Source of the DNA: Acetobacteraceae bacterium AT-5844
Lineage (GTDB): Bacteria; Pseudomonadota; Alphaproteobacteria; Acetobacterales; Acetobacteraceae
Reading direction: 5' to 3'
Assembly: GCA_000245075.1 (NCBI GenBank)
Contig: JH600015.1
Span: forward strand, 15,227 to 53,850
Length of the DNA stretch: 38,624 nucleotides
The position numbers and the translations under genes are program-made. The notes under the pieces were generated by a model. It searched no databases. It was given only the letters and a program-made list of their open reading frames with translations, and had not been told where the DNA came from. Positions 4,350 through 16,131 of the stretch are shown here, piece by piece (the first letter of the stretch is position 1; every line of letters begins with the position of its first letter).

Positions 4350-5345
4350 TCAAGCTGCGGCGGTAGCCAGGGCATCTTCTACCAAGGCCCAGGCTTGGGG
4401 GGCGTAGGCGCGGAGAAAGCTCGCCTTCCGCTCCCTCTCCTGTTGGGTGGACGGCACGGCGCCGGAAAGCATGTCCAGATATTCCCGCGCTCGTGCCTGC
4501 GCCCGCTCGGCCTGCGTCATCGGCGCGAGGACCCCCTCACCTGCCGAGGCAGCCCTCGGCTTCTGAGCCGCCAGCAATTCCTGCACACGCGGCTCGAAAT
4601 ACCCCCAGCCATTCACCCGCTCCGGGGCATAGCTGGCGCGCCCTGCAACCTGCCGCACCGCCTGCCGCAGCAGCTCCGGCGTGGCTCGGCCAGCCAACCA
4701 GGCACGCACCGGCGCCTCGTCGAACCGCCGGCCTTCCACCCGCGCAATCGCGGCCAGTTCCGCCGCCAGGGAAACCGCATCGGTTTCCTCGCGCGGGGTA
4801 CTACCACCACTGCTTTCTATCGAAAGAGAGGTAGTAGGTAGTACCGCGCGCGAGCTTTCCGCATTCGGTTCCGCTTCGGTTTCCTGGGTTTCGGCGCGAG
4901 CGCCCCCGGCAATCGGCATCATGAAGTGGCCCTGCCGCATCCCCTGCTCGCGCTCTCGCGCCTTGCGGGCCTGATATTGCTCGTGCGTTTCGCCCTTTCT
5001 CGGCCTGCCGCCTCGGATTCCATTGGCGCGGGCCGCTTCCACCCGCGCGGCGGCGGCACGGGCGGCCGAGACCCAGAGGCTATGGGTTTCGGCGTCCTCC
5101 TCCACCCAGCCGAGTTGCGCCAGGGTTTCCAAACCGGTTGCCACTTCGGTTTCCGGGATGGAAAGCAACCGGGATAGCGCCGCGGAAACCGGGCCGAGAA
5201 ACCGAAGCCGCCCCTTTTCTGGCGCGGCGGCGGCGAAGGCCAGGATCTCCAGCATCAGCAGCCGGACCATGGGCGGCAGCACGCGGAAGGCGGCGTCGCC
5301 GGCAGCGCGAACGAGCTGCCGCTCACAGGTGGAATTGCGGGCCAT
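4350..5345 (-). CDS. Phage replication-type protein (lambda O position), function unproven
   Basis: A 331-residue protein read away from the cro-like and CII-like genes, in the place where lambdoid phages carry their replication initiator. Residues about 15-85 look like a winged-helix region (MVRLLMLEILAFAAAAPEKG, then a second helix pair ending in TLAQLGWVEED). A basic Arg/Ala helix follows (residues 90-130, with RGGRPRKGETHEQYQARKAR), then a low-complexity Ser/Thr/Glu linker, then an Ala/Arg-rich C-terminal domain with NGWGYFEPRVQELL. I recognise no Walker motif. The reading as a replication initiator or helicase loader rests mostly on position and architecture. It ends the leftward set: the sensor kinase gene converges from the left and no virion gene follows. 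Confidence 0.55.
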   Translation of the reverse strand: MARNSTCERQLVRAAGDAAFRVLPPMVRLLMLEILAFAAAAPEKGRLRFLGPVSAALSRLLSIPETEVATGLETLAQLGWVEEDAETHSLWVSAARAAAARVEAARANGIRGGRPRKGETHEQYQARKAREREQGMRQGHFMMPIAGGARAETQETEAEPNAESSRAVLPTTSLSIESSGGSTPREETDAVSLAAELAAIARVEGRRFDEAPVRAWLAGRATPELLRQAVRQVAGRASYAPERVNGWGYFEPRVQELLAAQKPRAASAGEGVLAPMTQAERAQARAREYLDMLSGAVPSTQQERERKASFLRAYAPQAWALVEDALATAAA

Positions 5346-5488
5346 GGTGGACCTTCAAGCCAGTCGGCGCCGGGGTGCGGCACCAGGGAGGAATTCAGGC
5401 GCCCGCCGCCACTCCTTGGGGGGAGGGGATTGACCGGCGGCGGGCTGCCCCTCGCCCTTGCGTGGGGGAGACGCGGGCGAGATGGCGA

Positions 5489-5509
5489 GGCCGGCCCTCA
5501 TGGCCGGCC
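5489..5509. repeat. Perfect 8-bp inverted repeat GGCCGGCC-CTCAT-GGCCGGCC
   Basis: The stem overlaps the stop codon of the CII-like gene (5498-5500). There is no U tract on either side. It could slow Rho-independent decay or be a weak processing or termination signal between the CII-like and replication-like genes. Confidence 0.5.
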
Positions 5510-5983
5510 GGGGAAGGCTGCTGCTGCCCGCGCAAGGCGGGCGTGGATGTCCGCCATCAGGCCACTGGCCTGGCGGATGACGTCCTGCAGCTCGCGCTCG
5601 ATGCGCAGCTTGTCGTCGCGACACAGCTGGCCGTCTTCCATGCCTTCCGCCGAGACGCGGTGCAGGTCGCTCATCTCCGCCGCCAGCAGGGCGAGGCCGG
5701 AGAGGATGGAAGCCGCTGGCGAGCCCTGCGGGCGCACGGCAACCAGGCCATGCTGCCGCAACAGTTCTTCTGTGAGCGCGGCATCCTCTGCCACGCGCTC
5801 GAGCCGTTGCAGGATGTCGATGGGCAGGAACTGGTCGTGGTGCGGCGAGCAGTAATTGGCCAACTGGGAGCGGCCGACACGACAACAGGATGCAGCAGCA
5901 TCCAGCCCGCCGAGCTTATCGATCAGGTTGCGGGTCAGCGCCTTGAGGGCGAGTTGCTCCGACGAGAGAGGGTACGGCGTCAC
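5498..5983 (-). CDS. CII-like phage regulatory protein
   Basis: A 161-residue protein. Residues about 10-55 read KALTRNLIDKLGGLDAAASC followed by RVGRSQLANYCSP and LPIDILQRLERV. This matches the helix-turn-helix of phage CII-like/CP76 regulators, in which LGG-AA is the first helix and RSQLANY the recognition helix. The C-terminal half (LRIERELQDVIRQASGLM) is helical and could form an oligomerising coiled coil. GTG 5983 is preferred over ATG 6019 because GGGAGG sits seven bases ahead of the GTG. The gene lies between the cro-like gene and the replication-like gene on the leftward transcript, exactly the lambdoid order. In temperate phages such proteins favour lysogeny by activating repressor or integrase transcription; here that is inference from position. 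Confidence 0.65.
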   Translation of the reverse strand: MTPYPLSSEQLALKALTRNLIDKLGGLDAAASCCRVGRSQLANYCSPHHDQFLPIDILQRLERVAEDAALTEELLRQHGLVAVRPQGSPAASILSGLALLAAEMSDLHRVSAEGMEDGQLCRDDKLRIERELQDVIRQASGLMADIHARLARAAAAFPGRP

Positions 5984-6095
5984 GCGTAGCCCTCCCGTAG
6001 AGAGGTGGACCGCGTCCAATTGGCGCGGGAGCCGCAGGGTTCCAAGTTAAGGATCAGCGGTAGTGATCCCAGGCCTTGGGATACAGGAAAGTCGC

Positions 6096-6317
6096 TCATG
6101 CCCCCTCGGCGGAAGGCTGGTGTTGCTGCTGCCAAAGATCAGGGCGGAAAGCGTGACGTGGGATGCCAGTCGATCGCTCCAGCTCAACTGCGCGTTCGGC
6201 CGTGATGCGAAGGCTACGAGAGCGCCACTTTAGGATGGTCTGATGAGACACCTTCATCCGCGCTGCGAGCGGACGTACCCCGCCGGCTATCTGGATGGCA
6301 TCATCGATCGCGCTCAT
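6096..6317 (-). CDS. Cro/YdaS-like DNA-binding protein
   Basis: A 73-residue helix-turn-helix protein: AIQIAGGVRPLAARMKVSHQ, then TILKWRSRSLRITAERAVEL, then RSTGIPRHAFRPDLW. The AGG-R-LA start, the SHQTILKW recognition helix and the conserved RPDLW end match Cro/YdaS-type antitoxin-like proteins encoded by prophages. In that family the protein opposes the lysogenic repressor by binding shared operators. It is divergent from the repressor at 6411, and the first 17-bp operator begins ten bases upstream of its ATG (6317-6315). It heads the leftward CII/replication transcript. The length is normal for the family. Confidence 0.8.
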   Translation of the reverse strand: MSAIDDAIQIAGGVRPLAARMKVSHQTILKWRSRSLRITAERAVELERSTGIPRHAFRPDLWQQQHQPSAEGA

Positions 6318-6326
6318 AGCTCATTT

Positions 6327-6343
6327 GGTACCCTAAAGGTACC
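6327..6343. promoter_or_regulatory. Operator 1, GGTACC-N5-GGTACC
   Basis: The sequence GGTACCCTAAAGGTACC is a near-perfect dyad in the cro-repressor divergent region, ten bases upstream of the cro-like ATG. It matches related 17-mers at 6362, 6772 and 6808. Position and repetition point to the binding site for the repressor and Cro-like proteins of this module. Confidence 0.7.
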
Positions 6344-6361
6344 TTTGCGGTCAAGCCATCA

Positions 6362-6378
6362 GGTACCCTGTGGTGACA
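6362..6378. promoter_or_regulatory. Operator 2, weaker copy in the divergent region
   Basis: GGTACCCTGTGGTGACA shares its left arm with operator 1 but has a degenerate right arm. It lies 35 bases from operator 1, close to the spacing (36 bases) of the pair at 6772 and 6808, and 32 bases ahead of the repressor ATG. A weaker site here would fit autoregulation. Confidence 0.55.
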
Positions 6379-6410
6379 CGCGCTTTCCAATGCTCGGCAA
6401 TGCTGAGCGG

Positions 6411-6767
6411 ATGGATACAGCTAAGCTCTTGCGAACAGAACGGGAACGACGCAACCTTGACCAACATGAGGTCGCGGCGGCCATCGGTGTTTCGCGTCCC
6501 ACAGTGACCCAGTGGGAAGCGGGCACCAAAAAGCCCGGCACTAAGAATGCAAGGAAGCTAGCAATGTTCTTCAGACTGCCCCTGGAAGCGATCCTCGGCG
6601 AGGAATCCTCGGCCGAAGTGATTCGTGCTTCACGGGAGGAGGTGGAGGCGGTGCAGCTCCTTCGGCACGCGCCGCCCCACGTTAGGGAGGCAGTTCTTAC
6701 GCTTCTGCGGTCAGCAGCGAGCACGACCGAGGTACCTGGTAACCCAACATCACGAAATCGTGATTAG
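6411..6767 (+). CDS. XRE-family phage repressor (CI-like, no peptidase domain)
   Basis: A 118-residue repressor. Residues about 5-62 form an XRE helix-turn-helix: LLRTERERRNLDQHEVAAAI, GVSRPTVTQWEAGTKKPGTK and a final helix near LAMFFRLPLEAIL. The C-terminal half (REEVEAVQLLRHAPPHVREAVLTLLRS) is a short helical part probably used for dimerisation. There is no LexA/CI-type serine peptidase, so RecA-driven self-cleavage is not expected; induction would need another route, such as an antirepressor. ATG 6411 is used, trimming a longer open frame. It diverges from the cro-like gene, and operator copies lie on both sides of it, so it probably controls both the leftward operon and the rightward integrase operon. 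Confidence 0.82.
   Translation: MDTAKLLRTERERRNLDQHEVAAAIGVSRPTVTQWEAGTKKPGTKNARKLAMFFRLPLEAILGEESSAEVIRASREEVEAVQLLRHAPPHVREAVLTLLRSAASTTEVPGNPTSRNRD
6749..6764. repeat. Perfect palindrome ATCACGA-AA-TCGTGAT at repressor 3' end
   Basis: Seven-base arms with a two-base centre, ending directly before the TAG stop of the repressor. It differs from the GGTACC operators flanking it. It could be a second regulator's site, for example for the MarR-like protein encoded just downstream, or simply a coding coincidence. Confidence 0.4.
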
Positions 6768-6771
6768 CTAC

Positions 6772-6788
6772 GGTACCTGAAAGTTACC
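6772..6788. promoter_or_regulatory. Operator 3, GGTACC-N5-GTTACC
   Basis: GGTACCTGAAAGTTACC lies just after the repressor stop and upstream of the MarR-like gene. A shortened relative (GGTACCTGGTAACC, 6731-6744) lies inside the repressor's last codons. It shares the 6-5-6 layout with operators 1 and 4, so the integrase-side operon is probably under the same repressor. Confidence 0.65.
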
Positions 6789-6807
6789 AACGAAGCTTGC
6801 CACAAAA

Positions 6808-6824
6808 GGTACCTCTTGGTTACC
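6808..6824. promoter_or_regulatory. Operator 4, GGTACC-N5-GTTACC
   Basis: GGTACCTCTTGGTTACC, 36 bases from operator 3 and 28 bases upstream of the MarR-like ATG. It overlaps the expected promoter of the rightward operon, which ends with the integrase. Confidence 0.65.
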
Positions 6825-6852
6825 TCTGAGGGTCTTTTGTGGAGCAGGTATC

Positions 6853-7257
6853 ATGCAATTGGCTTCTGCCGCCTCTTCGGCAGCTGTCCCTGCCGTTATG
6901 TCAGCGAGGATAGCCCTTCCTCCTGAGCGGCGAATCGGGCTATCCAACTTTGCAGCTGCCATCAGGAATCTTGTGCGCGATGGGCGCCGAGACCTGTCCG
7001 CGCGCCAGCTGGGCGTGCTCACCACCCTGGCCTTGCAGCCGGAGCTGAACACCATCCGCAGCCTCGCGGTGCATCTCCGCGTTTCCAAGCCCGCCATCAC
7101 CCGCGCGGTGGATCGGCTGGAGGCAGAAGGCCTCGCCAAACGGCGGCCTGATCCGAAGGATCGCCGCAGCGTCTGCGTCGGCATCTCGCCCGCTGGCAGC
7201 AGCTATCTTGACGACATCGAAGTCGGCCTTCTCAAGTCGACCATGGCGGAGGCCTGA
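6853..7257 (+). CDS. MarR-family winged-helix regulator
   Basis: A 134-residue protein whose middle matches MarR: LSARQLGVLTTLALQPELNT leads to the recognition helix region HLRVSKPAITRAVDRLEAEG, and the wing is LAKRRPDPKDRRSVCVGISP. The DRRS wing motif and the closing AGSSYL are typical. The N-terminus lacks the long first helix of free-living MarR dimers, and an Ala/Ser-rich start replaces it. GGAG lies eight bases ahead of ATG 6853. It is the first gene of a rightward chain (6853-9936) in which several genes overlap by a few bases, so it may regulate excision or integration genes with the XRE repressor. No ligand can be suggested. Confidence 0.8.
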   Translation: MQLASAASSAAVPAVMSARIALPPERRIGLSNFAAAIRNLVRDGRRDLSARQLGVLTTLALQPELNTIRSLAVHLRVSKPAITRAVDRLEAEGLAKRRPDPKDRRSVCVGISPAGSSYLDDIEVGLLKSTMAEA

Positions 7258-7260
7258 GCC

Positions 7261-7869
7261 ATGCGCGGTTTCGCCATCGACGTCACCGAGCTCATGCGCC
7301 GCCACGCGGAAGGCGCCGGCGAGCACCACAACCCAGCCCTGCCAGAAGCCGAGGCGATGACGCTGCAGGAGCGCTTCACGGAACTGAACGACAATCCCGT
7401 GCAGTTCGCCCCCGGCATGCTCGTTACCTACAAGCCGGGCTTCGAGCAACGGAAGCCCGAATGGGCGGGTCACCCCATGATGGTCGCGGATGTCGATGTC
7501 TCCGGCTACCCGCTGCCGAAGTTCTCTGCACAAAGCTACGTTTTTCGGCCCGACACCGCCGTGCTCGATCTGCGGCCAGACGGCACCGCCGGCATCGCGC
7601 TGCTCGATCACCGCTGGCTGAAGGTATGGGAGCCAGCGCCCGCCATCGGCCCGGCGCCAGAACCGGAGCCCCTTCCGCCGCCACCCCGCAAGTCGGTGGG
7701 CAAGGAGACGCCCGACGAGTTGAAGCCCGAGGCCATGGACATGTTCGCCGCCGGCATGAGCGCGCGCGACGTGCACGACCAGCTCGGCATTGCGCTCAGC
7801 CTCGCCTCGCGCTGGGTGGAGGAATTCCGCCTGAAGCAGGACAAGCCCAAGAAGCGGAGGCGCGGATGA
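7261..7869 (+). CDS. Hypothetical protein with C-terminal helix-turn-helix, 202 aa
   Basis: The ATG follows the MarR-like stop by three bases. The N-terminal 125 residues form a mixed domain with FAPGMLVTYKPGFEQRKPEW and AVLDLRPDGTAGIALLDHRW, possibly a small beta-barrel; I recognise no family. A proline-rich linker (about residues 126-142) leads to a C-terminal stretch, PEAMDMFAAGMSARDVHDQL followed by GIALSLASRWVEEFRLKQDK, which reads as a helix-turn-helix with a basic tail (KPKKRRRG). Its place between a regulator and the excisionase/integrase suggests an element-maintenance or regulatory protein. The end overlaps the next start (ATGA). Confidence 0.65.
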   Translation: MRGFAIDVTELMRRHAEGAGEHHNPALPEAEAMTLQERFTELNDNPVQFAPGMLVTYKPGFEQRKPEWAGHPMMVADVDVSGYPLPKFSAQSYVFRPDTAVLDLRPDGTAGIALLDHRWLKVWEPAPAIGPAPEPEPLPPPPRKSVGKETPDELKPEAMDMFAAGMSARDVHDQLGIALSLASRWVEEFRLKQDKPKKRRRG

Positions 7870-8162
7870 TGCGCTCTCGTCTTCGGCGCTGGCTGGCCGC
7901 GCTGCATCGGCGCGCGCTGCTGCATCGCTCCGCGCAGCTGGCGCGGCGTGCCGCGGGGTTGATGGCCCAGCGAGACGCCCTGCCCCTGGCCAGCCGCGAG
8001 CGCATGCTGCTGAACGCCCAGGCCTTGGAGCTGTGCTGTGAATCCAGCGCGCTCCAAGCCGAAGCCATGGGCGACCAGCTCATGGCGCGCGAGCACCGCA
8101 TCGAGGCCGCCGAGTTCGGCCGCCGCGCCCGCCAACACGCCTGCCTCGGAGCCTTCGCATGA
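7866..8162 (+). CDS. Hypothetical Arg/Leu-rich helical protein, 98 aa
   Basis: It starts at ATG 7866, overlapping the previous stop as ATGA, and its own stop overlaps the next ATG the same way. The composition is strongly helical and basic at the N-terminus (RSRLRRWLAALHRRALLHRS), followed by repeated Ala/Leu/Arg heptads, so a coiled-coil or nucleic-acid-binding helix bundle is likely. I used this start, not a longer frame beginning at 7461, because that longer frame would lie over the preceding gene. No family is recognised. Translational coupling on both sides supports that it is a real gene. Confidence 0.6.
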   Translation: MMRSRLRRWLAALHRRALLHRSAQLARRAAGLMAQRDALPLASRERMLLNAQALELCCESSALQAEAMGDQLMAREHRIEAAEFGRRARQHACLGAFA

Positions 8163-8458
8163 GCGCCACCTTCTCGGCCGAGGCCGCCGCGCTGCGCCTG
8201 CTGCGGCGGAACACCCAGCCCGTGATGCTGGCACCTCCGCCGTTGCGGGAAACGCTGAACCGTCTCCCCTCCGACGTCTTCTGGCGCCTGGGCCATGACG
8301 GCGCCGGGCCAGACCCCAGCCTCTTCCTGGCGGAGGTCATGGTCTGCCGCCCCGGCTTCGAATCCCTGCACCGCCAGCATGGCGCCTCGCCGGAGGAAGC
8401 CCTGCACCGCGCCGCCGAGCGCCTGCTGGCCACGCTGGTGGAACCCGGCCATGCGTGA
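8159..8458 (+). CDS. Hypothetical protein, 99 aa
   Basis: The ATG overlaps the previous stop as ATGA. The protein is small and acidic to neutral; a central segment reads LRETLNRLPSDVFWRLGHDG and a C-terminal helix reads EEALHRAAERLLATLVEPGH. No catalytic or binding motif is visible and I do not recognise the family. Its stop (8456-8458) lies eight bases into the next gene, so it belongs to the same coupled chain leading to the integrase. Confidence 0.6.
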   Translation: MSATFSAEAAALRLLRRNTQPVMLAPPPLRETLNRLPSDVFWRLGHDGAGPDPSLFLAEVMVCRPGFESLHRQHGASPEEALHRAAERLLATLVEPGHA

Positions 8459-8813
8459 CGATGCCGACTGGCCCGGGCCGGAGCCGCGCTACCTCAACCG
8501 CCAGCAGGCGGCCGCCTATCTCGGCGTCTCCACCACGACCTTCGACGAGGAGGTAGCCGCCGGCCTCTGGCCCCAGGCGCGTAGGCGAGGCGCCAAGGGC
8601 CGGCGCCTCACCTGGGACCGCAAGCTGCTCGATAGCTTCGCGGACCGGGATTCGTATGGACCGGATCCACATGCCAACCCGGCCGCCCCAGCCCAACCTG
8701 CCTCGTTGTCCGATGATGCCGTGCGCCAGACCGCCGAGGCCGCGGCCCTGAGAGGTCTTCTGCATGCCGCGCCCCGCAACCGCGCTCAACACCGTCAGCA
8801 AAAAGCGGCGTGA
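8451..8813 (+). CDS. Excisionase-like helix-turn-helix protein (AlpA/HTH_17 type)
   Basis: A 120-residue protein with an N-terminal MerR-like/AlpA-like helix-turn-helix: YLNRQQAAAYLGVSTTTFDE, then EVAAGLWPQARRRGAKGRRL and TWDRKLLDSF. The order (LNRQQAAAYLGVS as helix-turn-helix, a glycine-rich wing, then TWDRKLLD) is what HTH_17 excisionases show. The C-terminal half is low in structure. ATG 8451 is chosen because it follows the family start closely; the upstream frame overlaps a different gene. Its end overlaps the integrase start by 50 bases. In temperate elements such a protein directs the integrase toward excision; here that is inferred from fold and position. Confidence 0.7.
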   Translation: MRDDADWPGPEPRYLNRQQAAAYLGVSTTTFDEEVAAGLWPQARRRGAKGRRLTWDRKLLDSFADRDSYGPDPHANPAAPAQPASLSDDAVRQTAEAAALRGLLHAAPRNRAQHRQQKAA

Positions 8814-9936
8814 CGGCACGGTTGATTACTTTTTCTACTACCGCCCCACCGGCCTCCTGATCGGCCGCAGCCGCGACGGCTGGACGAAGGAGGCGGCACG
8901 CGAGAAAGCAGCGGAAATGCTGCTGGCCGACGAGGCCAAGCGGTCCGGCCCACCCGCCGGGAGCTTTGGCGAGGTCTGTACCCTCTACCTCTCCAGCCCG
9001 CGCTACCGCGACCTGGCCCCGCGCACGCAGGCCGAATACCGCGACCACATCGAGATCATGCGTGGCATGTGGGAGACGGTGCCGGTGGTCGGCATCACCC
9101 GCAAGGTGGTGCGCGCCCTGCACGCCAGCTACGCCGATCGCCGCTGGAGAGGTAATGCCATCCTGCGCACGCTGCGGCTGGTGATGAACTTCGCCATCTA
9201 CGAGCTCGAGATCCCGGGGCTGACGAGCAATCCGGCCGAGCGCATTGCCCACTACCAGACCCGGCCGCGGGAGCAGCTATGGAGCCAGGCGCAGATCGAT
9301 GCCTTCCTGGAGGCGGCCGCTGACCAGCCGGTGATGCGGCGGGCATTCGCGCTGCTGCTCTACACTGTGCAGCGGCCGAGCGACGTGCTGAGCATGGCGC
9401 GCCCGATGCTTCTCGAGAAAGACGGACGCATGTGGATCAGGCTGCAGCAGGCGAAGACGAAGACGCTGGTGGATGTGCCGTGCCATGCAGGGCTGATTGC
9501 GGAGCTGAGGCAGATCGACACCATCAACGAAGGAGAAGAACGAAGCCCATTGCTGGTGGCCAGCCCGAGGGGAAAGGCTTGGCTCTATCGTAACTTTGCG
9601 CGTGCATGGGATCTGGTCCGGCGACGCGCGAACTGGCGAATTGCGCGGCAGGAGATCGAAAATCGCCGAGGTCTGCCCGAGCGTCGGCGCGTGGCGGAGA
9701 GGAAGAAGGCAAAAGAAGCGATCCGCCTAAAGATGCTGGGAAATCTTCAAAGGCGAGACCTGCGCCGGACGGGAATGATTCAGCTGGCGGTGGCTGGCGC
9801 GACAACGCCGCAGATTGCTGCGCTGAGCGGCCATGGCATCGACCGTATCCAGAAAATCCTCGACACCTATTTGCCTAGAAGGGGGGAGGTTGCCTTAGGG
9901 GGAGTGGAAAGGTGGGAAGGTAAGAGGGACCAGTAG
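8764..9936 (+). CDS. Tyrosine recombinase / phage integrase
   Basis: A 390-residue site-specific recombinase. Residues about 65-160 form the SAM-like core-binding domain (GEVCTLYLSSPRYRDLAPRT). The catalytic domain contains R204 (LLYTVQRPSDVLSM), a beta-hairpin Lys region (LQQAKTKTLVDVP), R331-x-x-R334 (RDLRRTGMIQLAVAG), H357 (LSGHG) and nucleophile Y369 (ILDTYLPR). The usual first residue of the H-x-x-R box is His; here it is Arg, a variation seen in some active integrases. It closes the coupled rightward operon and is probably repressed through operators 3 and 4. No att duplication was found in the 275 bases after it, so the integration site is not shown by this window. Confidence 0.9.
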   Translation: MPRPATALNTVSKKRRDGTVDYFFYYRPTGLLIGRSRDGWTKEAAREKAAEMLLADEAKRSGPPAGSFGEVCTLYLSSPRYRDLAPRTQAEYRDHIEIMRGMWETVPVVGITRKVVRALHASYADRRWRGNAILRTLRLVMNFAIYELEIPGLTSNPAERIAHYQTRPREQLWSQAQIDAFLEAAADQPVMRRAFALLLYTVQRPSDVLSMARPMLLEKDGRMWIRLQQAKTKTLVDVPCHAGLIAELRQIDTINEGEERSPLLVASPRGKAWLYRNFARAWDLVRRRANWRIARQEIENRRGLPERRRVAERKKAKEAIRLKMLGNLQRRDLRRTGMIQLAVAGATTPQIAALSGHGIDRIQKILDTYLPRRGEVALGGVERWEGKRDQ

Positions 9937-10211: not shown

Positions 10212-11063
10212 TCACCCGACCTGAGGAAGCTTCAGTGGGATGATCGCGTTTTTCCAGCGCCCCTTGCCGACGTCCTCGGGCATGTGCGGGCCGACTTCGG
10301 CGACCGTTTTCTCATAGAGGCGGGGCTTGTCTCCGGAAAACACCCAGATGTGGAACACAAATGCGTCGCCGAACTTCTTCGCCTGCTCCCACTCGTTTCT
10401 GGACAGCGTGAACGACGGCGGATTGGCGACGGTCGACTTCACCTCGATCAGCTTGTTGCGCGGCCCGTATTCACCCGGCCAATAGGAGAGAACGTCATAG
10501 CCTGCAGTATTGTCGTCGATGGCCATCCAGACTGGAGCTTTGTCGATACCGGCTTTGGCAAGTTCCGCCTTCTCGCGTTCCAGCGACAAAAGCTCGGCGT
10601 CGCGTGCCCGCTTGTTGAACTCCAAATCTCTCTGCAAGCGAACGTGCGTTTGTAGTGCATCCCACCATTGCACGTCATCGAGCTCCGGTGGGTCGTCCAG
10701 CAGCTTCGCCTGGCGGAAGAGGCTGCGGACGTCGCGGAATTCGTCGTCACGAAGACGCTTGATGAACATCCCACGGCCAAGCGTGACGAGTTTCGCCCAG
10801 TCTGGTACGTCGAGGAGAATGACCGTCGAGATGCATTCGCGATAAAATCCGACGCTTCCGTGCGGCGCGTCACGCGAGACCTGTTCGTGTAGAAAGATTG
10901 CTGCCTCGAGGTCGAGGCTGTCCGCGGTCGCTTCGACCTGACGAATAAGCGGAACGAGCTCGCTAGTGACTGCATCCGGCCAATCGGCTCCATACTGCCG
11001 CAGGACCCGGAGGCCCTCGAAGGCGGGCATGGAAAAGAGGCGTGGAAAAGGGAACGGGATCAC
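10212..11063 (-). CDS. DUF3883 (NOV_C) PD-(D/E)XK nuclease-like protein
   Basis: A 283-residue protein, last gene of the leftward defence operon. The C-terminal third matches DUF3883: AGYDVLSYWPGEYGPRNKLI, then EVKS (D190, E207, K209), and FTLSRNEWEQAKKFGDAFVF. D...E-x-K is the PD-(D/E)XK active-site pattern, so a metal-dependent DNA nuclease is likely. DUF3883 often accompanies restriction helicases. The first 150 residues are helical and unassigned. It begins at GTG 11063, overlapping the helicase stop as GTGA; the helicase's terminal Glu codons (AGGAGGAGG) double as a strong ribosome site. An internal ATG at 11030 is a weaker alternative. Probable role: effector nuclease guided by the upstream helicase/ParB-like pair; this is inference. 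Confidence 0.75.
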   Translation of the reverse strand: MIPFPFPRLFSMPAFEGLRVLRQYGADWPDAVTSELVPLIRQVEATADSLDLEAAIFLHEQVSRDAPHGSVGFYRECISTVILLDVPDWAKLVTLGRGMFIKRLRDDEFRDVRSLFRQAKLLDDPPELDDVQWWDALQTHVRLQRDLEFNKRARDAELLSLEREKAELAKAGIDKAPVWMAIDDNTAGYDVLSYWPGEYGPRNKLIEVKSTVANPPSFTLSRNEWEQAKKFGDAFVFHIWVFSGDKPRLYEKTVAEVGPHMPEDVGKGRWKNAIIPLKLPQVG

Positions 11064-12976
11064 TCCTCCTCCTCCTCCTCCTTTGCCTCCGCACGAGCCT
11101 GGTTCTCGAGCTCGGCCACCAGATCGATGAGGTCCTGCATCTCGACTTCGAGCTCGATCGGATCGACCGCCTCATCCTCGTCCATTGCGATGCGCAGCAG
11201 GTCATGATCGTTGAGCAGCTGCTGCAGGCCGTGGATCTTGGCCGATAGTCGCCGCGACACCGATAGGTCGACGCTGCCGATCTCTCTCGGTGCCTTGGTC
11301 CGGTAAATATGGATGTTGGTTTCCGTACCAGGCTTCAGGCCAAGGCGGTGGATACGGTCGATCGACTGAAGATAATGCGTCGAAACATAGCTTCGGTCGA
11401 GATAGATGGCATCGTGGCAGACCTCGTGAAGGCTGATCCCCTCGCCAGCTGCAGCCGGGTTAGCGATCATCACCTGGCAGCTGTCATCGAGGTGGAAGCG
11501 CCGCAAGCGCCCTTCGCGGCTGTTGGGATCGTTAAACTCTCCCGACGGAACAGCGCCGTAAAGCGATACCGGGTTGAGATCGGCGAGCCTCACTTCGAGA
11601 TCGTGGATATTTCCGGTGAATATCGTCCAGATAACCGACTTCTTGCCGTCGCGGGCGAGCGCCCGCGCATGATCGATTACCGCCGCCATCTTTGAGGAGA
11701 TGCCCTCGGCCAAAACCTGGTCGGCGATGCCGCTGCCGAGCCCCGGACTCTCTGTGACCATCGCCTGGAGCGCGAGGATCGGATTCGACGAAAGCTGTAG
11801 CAACCGCATGACCGACCGCCGAGCCTTCACAACGTCCGGCAGTGCATTCGAGTTAATGGTCCTGCTAATCTGCCGCAGCGCCTCGTTGCGCACGATCGAG
11901 TATAGCGCGAGCTGGCCTTTGCGCATGGATACGGAGTAGAAGTGGCGTTTCGCCTTCGGGAGGCCGAGCTCTTCCTTGGTCGTCCGGACATAGAGGTGGC
12001 CGAGAACCTCCCGCGGCGGGCGTCCACGTTCGATCTGCAGGTCGTACCCCGTGCCCGGCCACAAAAAGCCGAGCTGCGAGGCAAGGTCGCTCGGATCCTG
12101 CGGCATGGGTGTCCCGGACAGAATGTCACGCCGCGCGGGCCGGTCGGCGACCGCGAGCAGGAAAGCCCCTCGTTGCGAGGCAAGACCAGCCTTCATCCGG
12201 TGCGATTCATCGAGGATTAGATGGACGGAATTGCGGGCGAGATATTGAGCGATGACGGACTGCTGCCGTACCATCAGGTCGTAGGACATGACGAAGCGCT
12301 TACGCCCGCTGCGAAGCAGCTTGTCAGTCTGCGCTTCGGAGCCGTCGAGGATAGTGAACTCTTCGGCACCGCTGCCCGGCGCGTCGGGGCTCATGCATTC
12401 GGCTACAATCGAACGCCAAGCCGGGAAGGCTGCCTTAGGGCAGATGATGAGCAGAATCTGGCCCTCGGTTGCGGCGAGCAAGTGGAGCGCGAACGCTACC
12501 GTCGTCTTGCCCGCGCCCGGGACGGAAAAGTTGGCACCATGTGACAAGGAGAGCAGGTGCGCTAGGTCTCGCAGCTGAAACGGCTTGAGCTTGCGTCTGG
12601 TAAAGCCCGCTTCGATCAGACGCCGCTCAATCTGTTCTGGCGAGAGCAGGAGAGACAGCTTGTCGCGCTTCGCCCGCGCTTCCTTGTACTCGCGGACAAA
12701 AGCCGAAATTTTCGGTGCCGCCGTCGGGGTCGGACGGAAGCGGAAGTTCAGCGCCTGCTGCGTTGCCCCGCTGCCGAACTCGCGAACGATCTCCAATATC
12801 TTGGGCCAGGGCATCTCGAGCGCCTCGGTCCCAAGCCGTACCTGTGCATCCGTGCTCAGATGCGCGCGCAGCCGCTCCCAGATCGGCGAACTGCCAGTGC
12901 TAGACCTGGTCAGGCGGCCAGCGTTGCGCACCTCATCATAATCAACCTGGATATCCGCCGGGGCCTCGTCCGCCAC
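11060..12976 (-). CDS. SNF2-family DEAD/DEAH helicase
   Basis: A 638-residue superfamily 2 ATPase. Motif I is FSVPGAGKTT (GAGKT 154-158), motif II LILDESH (DESH 256-259), motif III SGTP (287-290); the C-terminal RecA lobe ends with NPAAAGEGISLHEVC and QSIDRIHRLG, the SNF2 motifs V and VI. The first 110 residues are an unassigned extension. SNF2 proteins translocate on double-stranded DNA and in defence systems (for example DISARM DrmD) help recognise foreign DNA. It starts at GTG 12976, six bases after the ParB-like stop, with GGAG upstream. The C-terminus is a Glu run (AKEEEEEE) encoded by a GAG repeat. No HsdR-type nuclease is fused; nuclease activity would come from the DUF3883 partner. 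Confidence 0.88.
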   Translation of the reverse strand: MADEAPADIQVDYDEVRNAGRLTRSSTGSSPIWERLRAHLSTDAQVRLGTEALEMPWPKILEIVREFGSGATQQALNFRFRPTPTAAPKISAFVREYKEARAKRDKLSLLLSPEQIERRLIEAGFTRRKLKPFQLRDLAHLLSLSHGANFSVPGAGKTTVAFALHLLAATEGQILLIICPKAAFPAWRSIVAECMSPDAPGSGAEEFTILDGSEAQTDKLLRSGRKRFVMSYDLMVRQQSVIAQYLARNSVHLILDESHRMKAGLASQRGAFLLAVADRPARRDILSGTPMPQDPSDLASQLGFLWPGTGYDLQIERGRPPREVLGHLYVRTTKEELGLPKAKRHFYSVSMRKGQLALYSIVRNEALRQISRTINSNALPDVVKARRSVMRLLQLSSNPILALQAMVTESPGLGSGIADQVLAEGISSKMAAVIDHARALARDGKKSVIWTIFTGNIHDLEVRLADLNPVSLYGAVPSGEFNDPNSREGRLRRFHLDDSCQVMIANPAAAGEGISLHEVCHDAIYLDRSYVSTHYLQSIDRIHRLGLKPGTETNIHIYRTKAPREIGSVDLSVSRRLSAKIHGLQQLLNDHDLLRIAMDEDEAVDPIELEVEMQDLIDLVAELENQARAEAKEEEEEE

Positions 12977-12982
12977 GCCGGC

Positions 12983-14260
12983 CTACTCCATCTCGGCGAG
13001 CTGCTCCCGCAGCTTCTTGACCAGGGCATCGATCGACTGCAGCTGCTTGCCGATCGCACTATAGCTGCTCGTCGCGGCGCGCGAGAGGTCGACCGACAGC
13101 AGCTTGGTATTGGCCTCGGTGACTGCCTTAAGAGCCGCTTTGCCGTCTTTCTGCCCCTTCGCGACCTCGAGTGCCGTAATGCTCGAATCAATAAGGGCCT
13201 GCGCGGCCTTCTCGCGCAGAACTGAGGACTTTAAGGCCTCGATAATCCCGTCGTAGGAGGGTGCTTCCTGGTCATCGTCGAGATCGATCGAAAGATCATC
13301 TATCTCGGCCTTCTCGGCCCCGGGCGGCTTCGTTGTCGGGATATTGAGCGTCGTCGCGGTGCGTTCTAGCACGTCGGCGGCCAATGCGCCGAACGCGGCG
13401 TTGAAATTGTAAAGACGCCCGCCGAGACTGTCGCGATTGTCGTAGAGCGTCCAGGCAATGACTCGGCTGGCATGAGCGAGCGCCGGGTCCTTCTTCGCCA
13501 CGCGGGCCGGAAGGTCTTTGAACACCTGTTCGGCATCTTCGGTGATCTCGGCATATTGGCCGGGCTTGCGCGCCCACTCCTTGAGGTACAGGTCCGCCTC
13601 GATCATCGCTTGCTCGACATTGGCGATGTCCTTGGGCGACCGGTGCAGCTTCCTGCCGATTTCTTCAGGAGTTCGTCCCATTGCGCGTAGTGCAAGGATC
13701 AGCTGTCCATCACCGATCCAATCATAGTCGAGCTTGGTCTCTGGCTTGCCCTGTAGGCTGGCCTCGATGTCCAGGATGTCGGCCGCAGTCGTGTCCGCAG
13801 GCAGGATCATCAGCTCGACATATTTATACCCCAGCTCGCGCAGGGCTGCGAGGCGGCGGTTGCCGTTGACCATCACCCCCCCCGAAGTCGCCAGCAACGG
13901 CTCAGTCTGCCCTTCCCCCTCGAGCACCTTGATCACCGGCACGACCGAGTCCGCGACACCTTTCTTCGCCAGTCCGACGAGGATGTCGTGTTGGACCTGC
14001 TGTACGCTCTCGACCTCTTGGCCGGCGGTGAAATAGTCGGGTACGAGGTTCTTCTCGGCGATCTCACTCTGCTGATGGCTGTAGGTGCGGAAGTTCGCCA
14101 TACGATAGATCGGAAGTCCGATGTCGACGCGAATGACGGGTAGGCGCGTCGGCTTTCCACGGAAATCGTTGAACGGAAGCATGTCGGCTGGGGATTTCGT
14201 CCCCTTGGCAATCACCGCCTCCCGCTCCGCAGGGGCCTTCAACTTCACTTCGTATGGCAT
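12983..14260 (-). CDS. ParB/sulfiredoxin-fold protein
   Basis: A 425-residue protein. Residues about 70-150 contain the ParB-like core, with VPVIKVLEGEGQTEPLLATS and the signature VNGNRRLAALRELG (GNRRLAAL, 133-140), the nucleotide-binding box shared by ParB CTPases and Srx-fold proteins. A helix-turn-helix region follows (ALRAMGRTPEEIGRKLHRSP, 190-215). The C-terminal 150 residues are helical with an acidic patch (DDLSIDLDDDQEAPS) and probable coiled coil. It is not near parA and sits inside a restriction-type operon, so chromosome partition is unlikely; ParB-like proteins in defence loci may be DNA sensors or nucleases. ATG 14260 is chosen over TTG 14293, leaving 19 bases after the preceding stop. 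Confidence 0.8.
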   Translation of the reverse strand: MPYEVKLKAPAEREAVIAKGTKSPADMLPFNDFRGKPTRLPVIRVDIGLPIYRMANFRTYSHQQSEIAEKNLVPDYFTAGQEVESVQQVQHDILVGLAKKGVADSVVPVIKVLEGEGQTEPLLATSGGVMVNGNRRLAALRELGYKYVELMILPADTTAADILDIEASLQGKPETKLDYDWIGDGQLILALRAMGRTPEEIGRKLHRSPKDIANVEQAMIEADLYLKEWARKPGQYAEITEDAEQVFKDLPARVAKKDPALAHASRVIAWTLYDNRDSLGGRLYNFNAAFGALAADVLERTATTLNIPTTKPPGAEKAEIDDLSIDLDDDQEAPSYDGIIEALKSSVLREKAAQALIDSSITALEVAKGQKDGKAALKAVTEANTKLLSVDLSRAATSSYSAIGKQLQSIDALVKKLREQLAEME

Positions 14261-14279
14261 GGACGTCTTTAGGCTCCGA

Positions 14280-14744
14280 TCATTCGAAGGCAATCAGCAG
14301 GATCGGCACCGTGATGACGCGGTCGAATGCGGTCATTTCCTTGATGACGCGCTCGGCGTTAGCGATGTTGCTGCCTATCCGCGCAGCGGCATCTCGGGTG
14401 GGAAGCGCGAGCGCCGCGGCTTCAATCCGCCGTCCGCTCTCGTAGAGGTGCTGCAGCTTCAACAAATCATAGGGCGCGCGGCTGATGTTGCCGGTCTGCA
14501 GCTGAAAGGCGAGATCGCCTTTCATTGCTGAGATGGTGAGATTGAGACTCTGATCTATGCGGACGTCCTGGCCCCAGCCTTCGGCTTGGAACTCGTCGGC
14601 GATGTGCTCCCGAATGGCAGTCGTGCAGCCTGGCGCGATGCGGATCGCCGGCGCCTCGAATCGGTCTGTGATCCACTCGAGCAGGTCTCGTTTTTCCCAC
14701 TCGGCAATACCGTTGCGATGGTCATGCATGAAGGCAAGCTTCAT
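14280..14744 (-). CDS. BglII/BstYI-family restriction-endonuclease-like protein, possibly inactive
   Basis: A 154-residue protein. The block AFQLQTGNISRAPYDLLKLQ (79-98), then LYESGRRIEAAALALPTRDA and GSNIANAERVIKEM, resembles BglII/BstYI-family proteins, where the conserved core is D-x8-E-x-Q followed by GN and a DLLKLQ helix. Here the equivalent positions appear to read S72, Q81 and Q83, so the acidic metal ligands would be missing. Either it is a DNA-recognition subunit that has lost cleavage, or a related fold with a different active site. Its ATG (14744-14742) overlaps the methyltransferase stop by one base, a very tight coupling. Length is shorter than classical BglII (223 residues). 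Confidence 0.55.
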   Translation of the reverse strand: MKLAFMHDHRNGIAEWEKRDLLEWITDRFEAPAIRIAPGCTTAIREHIADEFQAEGWGQDVRIDQSLNLTISAMKGDLAFQLQTGNISRAPYDLLKLQHLYESGRRIEAAALALPTRDAAARIGSNIANAERVIKEMTAFDRVITVPILLIAFE

Positions 14745-15673
14745 CAATCACTCTTCCCGTTCGGGTCGTAGACCGGCTTGTTCATCGGTCGCGTGCGCAG
14801 GGTTCCCTGGCGCAAAGCCTCGACCCTCTCGAGCGCGACGTCGACATAATCCTGCATGAGGTCGCAGCCGAAGGCATTGCGGTCGTGCTTCAGCGCGGCA
14901 ACGATCGACGAGCCCACGCCCATATAAGGATCGAGCACGTTGTCAGCTGGGTTGGTCAGCCCAAGCACCAGCCTCTCGACCAGTCCAACCGGAAACTGAC
15001 AGGGGTGGATAGTCTTCTCAACATGGTTGGCCTTGACGTTCGGGATTTCCCATACATCAGTGGGATTTTTGCCGAGCGGGTTGCCCGAAATCTGGCCGCG
15101 CTTGGGGCCCTTGAAATGCTTCTTTTCCGGATATTTGGATGGGACGCGCACCGGATCGAGATTGAATGTATAATTATCACCACGCGTGAACCACAGGATG
15201 GTTTCGTGGCGACCGGAGAAGCGTCGCTGTGTGTGGAGTCCGTGACCGAAGGTCCAGATGATGCGGTTACGAAGCTTGAGACCATGGTTCTTGAACAACG
15301 GGTAGAGCAGGATGTCGAGCGGGAAGACCTCGCCGTTGTCGATATGATTGCCCACCTGCCAGCAAATCGATCCCTGGGGATGAAGGAGCCGGGCGGCCTC
15401 GGCTATCGTCTCGGCCTGTTTCTCGACGTAGAGGTCGCGATCTGTCCGTTGCTCGTAGGCCTTGCCGAGATTATACGGCGGGGACGTTACGATGAGCTTC
15501 ATGCTGCCCTTCTCGAGCGAGCGCATGAAATCGATATTGTCCTTGCATTCGACAGTTACGCGAGCGCGCGTCCTGCGGAGTGGGACGACGTTGTCATGAC
15601 TGCTCTGTACACTGCAGAACTCCTGCCGCGGATCATGTGCGGCCCGCTTGGCCATTGAGCGATCAGCCTGCAT
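14744..15673 (-). CDS. Type II DNA methyltransferase (beta class, SPPY motif)
   Basis: A 309-residue DNA methyltransferase. Motif IV (TSPPYNLGK, SPPY 64-67) precedes motif I (DPYMGVGSS, 248-256), the beta-class order. SPPY is typical of N4-cytosine enzymes, though some N6-adenine enzymes share it. Catalysis uses S-adenosylmethionine. The region from about 140 to 220 (HTQRRFSGRHETILWFTRGD, then KNPTDVWEIPN) contains the target-recognition part and the conserved DVW-I motif. Start is uncertain: ATG 15673 has a purine-rich GAGAGAG upstream; in-frame ATGs at 15718 and 15655 are alternatives. It is the first gene of the five-gene leftward operon and lies next to tRNA-Arg. Role: protects host DNA and marks self. 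Confidence 0.88.
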   Translation of the reverse strand: MQADRSMAKRAAHDPRQEFCSVQSSHDNVVPLRRTRARVTVECKDNIDFMRSLEKGSMKLIVTSPPYNLGKAYEQRTDRDLYVEKQAETIAEAARLLHPQGSICWQVGNHIDNGEVFPLDILLYPLFKNHGLKLRNRIIWTFGHGLHTQRRFSGRHETILWFTRGDNYTFNLDPVRVPSKYPEKKHFKGPKRGQISGNPLGKNPTDVWEIPNVKANHVEKTIHPCQFPVGLVERLVLGLTNPADNVLDPYMGVGSSIVAALKHDRNAFGCDLMQDYVDVALERVEALRQGTLRTRPMNKPVYDPNGKSD

Positions 15674-16057: not shown

Positions 16058-16131
16058 TGTCCCCGGCGGGATTCGAACCCACGGCCCCCAGATTAGGAAT
16101 CTGGTGCTCTATCCTGCTGAGCTACGGAGAC
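16058..16131 (-). tRNA. tRNA-Arg (CCU anticodon)
   Basis: Read on the minus strand the 74-base cloverleaf has a 7-bp acceptor stem (GTCTCCG with CGGGGAC, one T-G pair), a D-arm GCTCAGCAGGATAGAGC, an anticodon arm CCAGA-TTCCTAA-TCTGG with anticodon CCT at 16097-16095, and a T-arm containing GGGTTCGAATCCC. CCA is not encoded. The 3' end faces the defence operon. tRNA-Arg(CCU) reads AGG and is a frequent integration target; the foreign-looking block begins right after its 3' end. Confidence 0.95.

Follow-up and report, generated by a model that had tools for sequence, protein, structure and literature searches.

What becomes of a restriction enzyme once its active site is gone, when it is kept in one operon with a DNA methyltransferase, a ParB-like protein, an SNF2 translocase and a nuclease? 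The question is raised by five adjacent genes in a 38,624-nucleotide stretch of Acetobacteraceae bacterium AT-5844 (contig JH600015.1), called the window here; positions are those of the window, L numbers refer to sequence stretches at other loci and G numbers to genomes. We consider it rather probable that the operon is an unbundled adenosine triphosphate (ATP)-dependent restriction-modification (R-M) system, in which the dead BglII-like enzyme reads unmethylated sites, the ParB-like and SNF2 proteins act and a DUF3883 protein cuts. A role in defense, suggested by the genomic context, is very probable.

The five genes and the lost active site

Five open reading frames (ORFs) on the minus strand span 15673 to 10212. 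From the methyltransferase to the DUF3883 protein, neighboring genes are joined by a 1-base overlap (4 bases with the TTG start on the ParB side), a gap of 19, a gap of 6 and a 4-base overlap:

14744..15673, minus strand: beta-class N6/N4 DNA methyltransferase (PF01555) with motif IV TSPPY and DPYMGVGSS; predicted self-marking enzyme
14280..14744, minus strand: BglII/BstYI/BamHI-fold protein without catalytic residues; proposed reader of unmethylated sites
12983..14260, minus strand: ParB-like protein (N domain with NGNRR, helix-turn-helix, long C-terminal part); proposed DNA clamp or adaptor
11060..12976, minus strand: SNF2 translocase with the ATPase motifs FSVPGAGKT, DESH and QSIDRIHRLG
10212..11063, minus strand: DUF3883/NOV_C PD-(D/E)XK-type nuclease with a GYD...EVK motif; proposed effector

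An earlier, sequence-only reading of this DNA had treated the genes as one unit with these positions and spacings and had named their domains. The ORF coordinates agree with the former; as for the latter, Pfam recognizes four of the five proteins (the methyltransferase, BglII-type, SNF2 and NOV_C domains), and the ParB fold was recovered by a Foldseek search with a structural model. A promoter and terminator scan gave no signal clear of chance.

The BglII-like protein is a member of the Pfam family Endonuc-BglII (PF09195; E 4.7e-8, 33.4 bits against a cut-off of 26) and has no PADLOC match. Its model (pLDDT 90) matches BstYI in Foldseek at E 2.9e-10, with a TMq of 0.82 for both BstYI and BglII, and all 16 PDB matches below E 0.001 are chains of BstYI, BglII, BamHI or OkrAI. 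The profile alignment to BstYI is gapless across the active site and sets positions 72, 81 and 83 against D119, E128 and Q130, which we take to be the catalytic residues of BstYI; where BstYI has D-E-Q, the window protein has S-Q-Q. All 11 operon-linked copies (ten rows in one alignment and L024 in another) show S/T/F-Q-Q at these positions, whereas all eight unlinked PF09195 relatives show D-(E/D)-E. The unlinked set came from a PF09195 search of 398 genomes of the phylum and consists of genes with no window-type ParB, SNF2 or methylase gene within ~1.5 kb; the remaining two matches of that search, the window and G552, are both linked and both without the catalytic acids. When further PF09195 genes were sought in twelve genomes, ten held exactly one match and two held none.

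The gene is nevertheless well kept. The ratio of nonsynonymous to synonymous substitution (dN/dS) is ~0.01 to 0.12 in the four pairs with computable dS (dS being saturated in three others), and all 11 linked copies have N86 and S88; the gene is thus under strong purifying selection and is not decaying. The BamHI residues that match N86 and S88 presumably touch bases. The asparagine, three residues past the last catalytic position, is common to most unlinked PF09195 members (6 of 8), all eight of which have D at position 88. Since the catalytic residues are lost in the 11 linked members, the protein is, on residue conservation, more likely a site reader than a cutter. The sequence-only reading had made it a separate PD-(D/E)XK nuclease, a view that has to be given up: with the catalytic site lost in every linked copy, we rejected an active BglII-like enzyme, and the active endonuclease expected of a type II R-M system appears to be missing.

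Partner proteins and recurrence of the unit

The methyltransferase matches Pfam N6_N4_Mtase (PF01555) at E 1.5e-49 and the RsrI methylase at E 1.4e-35, and the best 25 of its 64 PADLOC matches are to type II, orphan and type III methylases. It shares 67-77% identity with nine linked homologues and 49% with those of L007 and L013. Because several homologues begin ~20 residues further in, its true start may be internal.

For the ParB-like protein, no Pfam match was found at E 0.1. The best Foldseek matches of its model (pLDDT 86) are KorB, Spo0J, ParB and Noc structures, with KorB first (E 2.5e-4), Spo0J at E 1.4e-3 and two chains below E 0.001. Both the N domain and the helix-turn-helix are included in the matched KorB, Spo0J/ParB and Noc chains, and on this fold the model belongs with the ParB/KorB/Noc proteins. 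As to clamp chemistry (cytidine triphosphate binding and closure), the only apparent sign is a GNRR-type motif. The ATG start is conserved among homologues, and TTG at 14293 is an alternative start. The sequence-only reading had spoken of a ParB-like sensor; the fold stands, and the sensor gives way to a DNA clamp or adaptor, which the modeled KorB/ParB/Noc layout would suit better.

The SNF2 protein (Pfam SNF2-rel_dom, E 4.8e-12) keeps its ATPase motifs and is 55-66% identical across nine five-gene loci; its PADLOC matches are weak and confined to the helicase domain (ZorD, best E 9.6e-11, DpdE and DrmD). The last protein matches Pfam NOV_C at E 2.8e-13, and its motif of D190, E207 and K209 (G188-D190...E207-x-K209) is intact in all 13 aligned proteins, the window's included, which places it among the NOV_C/DUF3883 nucleases with their D..ExK motif. 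That alignment left out L003, L035, L038 and L050, of which L050 visibly carries GYD...EVK. Its PADLOC matches are PDC-S36 (E 6.2e-9, to the last half of a 280-position profile) and, more weakly, TmtA, PD-T4-1 and HmaA. Because the DUF3883 motif is intact and the BglII-like catalytic residues are gone, the usable nuclease of the operon is, by its predicted active site, the DUF3883 protein and not the BglII-like one, in keeping with the earlier suggestion that DUF3883 is the likely effector.

The grouping of these genes was compared in 12 loci besides the window, each with a ParB-like relative at at least 40% identity: nine from the genome collection, one Paracoccus plasmid and two further genomes (L011/L035 and L024/L038). 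Nine of the 12 carry all five genes in the same order and on the same strand, at 41-73% identity, so the grouping is not due to chance, and the gene-order check proposed with the sequence-only reading came out in its favor. One of the nine, L003, has a short DUF3883 ORF at a contig end. Of the other three loci, L006 and L010 are cut by contig ends, the part present agreeing with the five-gene order, and L007 has a methylase, ParB and a broken SNF2 with no BglII gene. Over ten loci, the window included, pairwise protein distances among the five genes correlate at 0.83-0.98.

The five-gene system is rare. At E 1e-20, a search of 385 genomes of the class found the ParB-like protein in four, in two of which the relative is only distant; within the genus, the window's own genome is the only one of 17 to have it. 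A profile search of the phylum at E 1e-15 gave four genomes out of 398, counting the window's genome and G159 with its lone ParB. In G159 (L012/L037/L051) the ParB-like gene is a distant one, and the neighboring stretch gave no SNF2, methyltransferase or DUF3883 match; this locus was excluded from the counts of operon loci. Eight pattern matches to the ParB-like protein in viral contigs were not confirmed, and the protein was not found among 50,697 phage records. Recorded hosts include Phreatobacter, Hoeflea, Bosea, Asticcacaulis, Oceanicaulis and Paracoccus, along with metagenome bins labeled Rickettsiales, Gammaproteobacteria, Obscuribacter and Opitutus. The evidence supports an operon that is real, conserved, horizontally spread and linked to methylation.

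Other enzyme families beside ParB and SNF2

A second type II enzyme family recurs in the same position. Plasmids of Rhizobium, Kozakia, Mesorhizobium and Azospirillum (L025-L028) hold a gene of ~280-320 codons before ParB-SNF2-DUF3883, with an insertion sequence (IS) element before DUF3883 on the Mesorhizobium plasmid. None of the three of these four proteins that were scanned matched Pfam, and the Rhizobium protein matched PADLOC REase_II PDLC03501 at E 2.8e-19. Five canonical members of the family occur in 4 of 398 genomes, each beside a Dcm methylase; these five and a Rhizobium paralogue form the canonical set of six, a Kozakia ORF in two frames not being counted. All six canonical enzymes have D and E/D, and five of them K (L045 has N); in the four ParB-linked copies D has given way to V or I and E to I, K being kept. 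Dcm is nearby on all four plasmids. On the Rhizobium plasmid, Dcm and a canonical enzyme are followed, 3.3 kb on, by the dead copy with ParB-SNF2-DUF3883; the Kozakia plasmid has Dcm and the dead copy, together with the canonical enzyme ORF and a DUF3883 match that each lie in two frames.

A third form was found on two Firmicutes plasmids, one of Priestia megaterium (L030) and one of Lactiplantibacillus plantarum B3 (L086). Each encodes, close to ParB and to an SNF2 protein that includes a PLD nuclease domain, a protein whose match to Sau3AI-type enzymes is confined to their C-terminal half (best E 2.9e-47 and 5.8e-53, against 0.1 or worse for the N-terminal halves); Dcm is nearby. The gene for the Sau3AI-like protein is downstream of SNF2 in both and on the opposite strand in Priestia. 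We take the C-terminal half of Sau3AI to be its non-catalytic, inactive second MutH-like half; in the alignment, the C half does not retain the ELK motif found in the N half. Although Sau3AI is not of the window's family, the occurrence of its second half without the first beside ParB-SNF2 in two plasmids shows the dead-reader solution reached another way. In all three forms a nuclease gene accompanies the reader: all nine complete loci with the BglII-like protein have one (short in L003), as do all four with the second family (interrupted in Kozakia, behind the IS element in Mesorhizobium) and, in the form of PLD, both loci of the third form.

The dead-reader design thus appears to have arisen more than once. 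How far this can be generalized is about evenly balanced in our judgment: type II enzymes of at least three families may each have lost catalysis independently and come to supply a single conserved ParB-SNF2 module with interchangeable readers, while cutting falls to a nuclease that can be swapped (DUF3883, PLD or type III Res), and the Rhizobium dead copy, near an active parent-type enzyme and a shared methyltransferase, may form a second defense tier.

Of 15 plasmid contexts (L014, L025-L034 and L086-L089), seven hold a non-cutting reader (L014, L025-L028, L030 and L086). Two have the ParB-SNF2 pair joined to a type III system, for which Pfam found both Mod and Res in L032, the Res endonuclease domain being confirmed there by scan:

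L032 5557-8680 (Enterococcus plasmid): ParB-SNF2 appended to type III mod-res
L089 4995-8160 (Limosilactobacillus plasmid): ParB-SNF2 appended to type III mod-res

Used as a query, the ParB of L032 returned 66 plasmid records, 52 of them from Enterococcus. In two further Enterococcus plasmids, a protein of ~860 residues precedes ParB and SNF2:

L033 2825-5419: ~860-residue protein, annotated as sigma factor-like helix-turn-helix
L088 2324-4906: ~860-residue protein, no Pfam match

The last 260 residues of the ~860-residue protein are similar to the C-terminal part of the Priestia reader (E 3.8e-11), and the shared part is perhaps a common docking domain; in these two plasmids no gene could be identified as reader or as nuclease. 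L029 holds ParB, SNF2 and a DUF3883-like match, and L031 a methylase with an IS element. L034 (Rhizobium plasmid pR132505), with SNF2 and ParB beside DGQHR-domain and radical SAM proteins, seems to be of another kind and may be a cluster for 7-deazaguanine DNA modification.

Several points weigh against the favored explanation: (i) no reader could be assigned in 4 of the 15 plasmid contexts (L029, L031, L033 and L088), type III parts take its place in two (L032 and L089), and L087 has a full Sau3AI-family enzyme beside Dcm, with the ParB/PLD-SNF2 pair beyond an IS element; (ii) L036 and L050 hold methylase, ParB, SNF2 and DUF3883 with no recognizable restriction-enzyme homologue in the neighborhood, and because these two and L007 do without a reader gene, either the reader is not obligatory or the methyltransferase or ParB reads the site; (iii) Mesorhizobium and Azospirillum have Dcm without a canonical enzyme in the neighboring stretch; (iv) the canonical relative L045 lacks its lysine, so decay is not unique to linked copies; (v) the pairs L014/L024 and L003/L005 are near-identical, which reduces the 11 linked BglII-like copies to ~9 independent ones; and (vi) linkage of the eight unlinked PF09195 genes was judged within ~1.5 kb only, L020 being near a contig end.

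Mechanism, alternatives and setting

In the scheme that we favor, the methyltransferase would mark a short site in the host DNA, which may have a GATC core given that the sites of BglII, BstYI and BamHI are all GATC-centered. The catalytically dead BglII-fold protein would still bind this site when it is unmethylated and pass on to the ParB-like protein, maybe by loading it as a nucleoside triphosphate-dependent clamp; after the hand-over the SNF2 motor would translocate on DNA, and the DUF3883 nuclease would cut away from the site. The proposed reading and cutting draw on residue conservation, and loading and moving, the weakest steps, on modeled fold. If the scheme is true, an orthodox restriction enzyme has become the specificity subunit of a translocating machine, which opens a possible route from type II to ATP-dependent restriction, and the ParB clamp fold gains a part in restriction. 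It predicts binding without cutting at the site protected by the neighboring methyltransferase, and it warns that genes annotated as restriction endonucleases may encode readers rather than cutters.

The alternative that survives best, although we regard it as unlikely, leaves targeting to the methyltransferase or to the ParB-like protein with its own helix-turn-helix and makes the dead BglII-like protein a dispensable regulator that shields sites or tunes methylation. It would account for L036 and L050, which keep the other four genes without a reader, and for the type III loci, where the Mod subunit, presumably the site-reading part of such systems, can read the site. It fits poorly with a non-cutting type II homologue beside ParB-SNF2 in three families, directly before ParB in the first two. 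A type IV-like action, in which the reader would recognize DNA bearing methylation or another modification and set the motor and nuclease on invaders so marked, seems very unlikely: the evidence does not distinguish methylated from unmethylated reading, which favors it weakly, yet a cognate methyltransferase within the operon would mark the host itself for attack. The SNF2-DUF3883 fusion described for an R-M operon (available part of PMC3710099) favors neither this nor unmethylated-site reading. An ordinary type II pair of BglII-like enzyme and methyltransferase with chance helper genes, highly improbable in our view, could appeal to the Endonuc-BglII match above the Pfam cut-off and to the adjacent methyltransferase, and is contradicted by the loss of both catalytic acids in every linked copy and their retention in every unlinked one, and by five genes that travel together. 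Finally, an element-maintenance or DNA-segregation module using ParB and methylation marks is hardly credible, for although the ParB fold and carriage on plasmids and beside prophage-like genes would suit it, there is no ParA partner among the five genes, nuclease, methyltransferase and restriction-enzyme homologues occur throughout, and the phage records did not yield this ParB-like protein.

Among known systems, type I and type III R-M combine methylation-marked self, separate recognition, an SF2 motor and a nuclease acting after translocation. The proposed scheme resembles them in all four respects and differs in that the reader would be a dead type II enzyme, the motor and nuclease are separate and a ParB-like protein is added. 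Type I was rejected, as Pfam and NCBIfam scans of the five proteins gave no HsdS or HsdR match; for type III, the same databases showed neither Mod nor Res in the window and gave no more than a ResIII helicase match to SNF2 below threshold, a respect in which the window is unlike those Firmicutes plasmids that attach the ParB-SNF2 pair to a type III system. The enzymes BglII, BstYI and BamHI share the fold of the window protein, which differs from them in having lost the catalytic D and E, in its length (~155 residues against roughly 200 in the structures) and in being tied to ParB, SNF2 and NOV_C genes.

DISARM consists of DrmA and DrmB with the DrmC nuclease, BREX of PglZ with BrxC/BrxL, and Zorya of the ZorA/ZorB motor with ZorD. 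Each was considered and rejected: the matches listed (for the methyltransferase, the best 25 of 64 in PADLOC) included only weak DrmD matches from SNF2 for DISARM, no PglZ, BrxC or BrxL for BREX and, for Zorya, only the ZorD helicase-domain matches given above. With DISARM, Zorya and Dpd the operon thus shares weak SNF2 matches to DrmD, ZorD and DpdE, and no DrmA/DrmB, ZorA/ZorB or Dpd synthesis gene was among the matches listed for the five proteins. The likeness to the PADLOC defense candidate PDC-S36 lies in the DUF3883 protein alone and concerns a one-protein profile, with no operon model seen. By the scans made, the operon would act like ATP-dependent restriction without the defining parts of types I, II and III, DISARM, BREX or Zorya. 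No PADLOC system among the matches listed fits it, nor did full-text searches of an open-access library turn up an account of ParB-SNF2-DUF3883 with a type II enzyme homologue, and to that extent the sequence-only reading was right to call it undescribed.

The nearest published arrangement that we found is in Anantharaman et al. 2013 (PMC3710099), the available part of which calls DUF3883 a novel restriction endonuclease domain and describes its fusion to an SNF2 helicase in an R-M operon; that operon has a HEPN/AAA+ protein, and the same part mentions neither ParB nor a dead type II enzyme. The MORC/SNF2 restriction operons of Iyer, Abhiman and Aravind (2008) likewise join an SNF2 helicase with restriction-fold nucleases and methylases, with a GHKL ATPase instead of ParB, and neither ParB nor BglII appears in the available text (PMC2292703). 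An SNF2/RAD54 helicase upstream of a methyltransferase gene is mentioned in the type II section of PMC5608340, from whose available text ParB is absent. The five-gene set is not described in the accessible portions of these three articles or of PMC5512222, PMC12839542, PMC10853773, PMC10952713 and PMC3459991. Separately, at L050 (5780-13352) the methyltransferase-ParB-SNF2-DUF3883 genes lie beside a divergent GHKL ATPase and a Methyltransf_35 protein, which recalls MORC-type operons.

The operon stands between a transfer RNA (tRNA) gene, the tRNA-Arg(CCU) that had already been noticed beside it, and prophage-like genes that occupy 4350-9936, to its left:

16058..16131, minus strand: tRNA-Arg(CCT), likely insertion hotspot and island edge
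8764..9936, plus strand: tyrosine recombinase (integrase), PF00589 at E 1.7e-5 and 25.1 bits, just under the cut-off of 27.1
6853..7257: MarR, prophage-like flank
6243..6767: helix-turn-helix regulator, prophage-like flank
5498..6019: phage CII-like regulator, prophage-like flank

The G+C content is 58-64% across 10-16 kb against 69-72% at 17-25 kb, the lower value that the sequence-only reading had pointed out relative to the region on the right. The right flank of the tRNA is present in all 17 genomes of the genus, and in all four that were examined of the 16 other than the window's own, the tRNA-Arg(CCT) and right flank are kept and the operon is absent from the 7-8 kb covered there. Because two of these four have short stretches resembling window 6984-7123 or 8486-8633 near the same tRNA, the tRNA is likely an insertion hotspot, and the operon, judged from such sequence comparisons, looks mobile. 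A second copy of the tRNA 3' end (att repeat) was sought in the window and the first 15.3 kb of the contig; only the tRNA itself was found, so the left end of the island is not fixed.

In four genomes of the genus (G386, G389, G394 and G398), the match to tRNA-Arg(CCT) is broken in two at the anticodon loop. Whereas L082 gave no match to the Rfam group I intron model (RF00028), the other three matched it at 26.6-35.4 bits, below the gathering score of 50; their split-tRNA coordinates are:

L083 220-422: split-tRNA stretch
L084 265-461: split-tRNA stretch
L085 228-483: split-tRNA stretch

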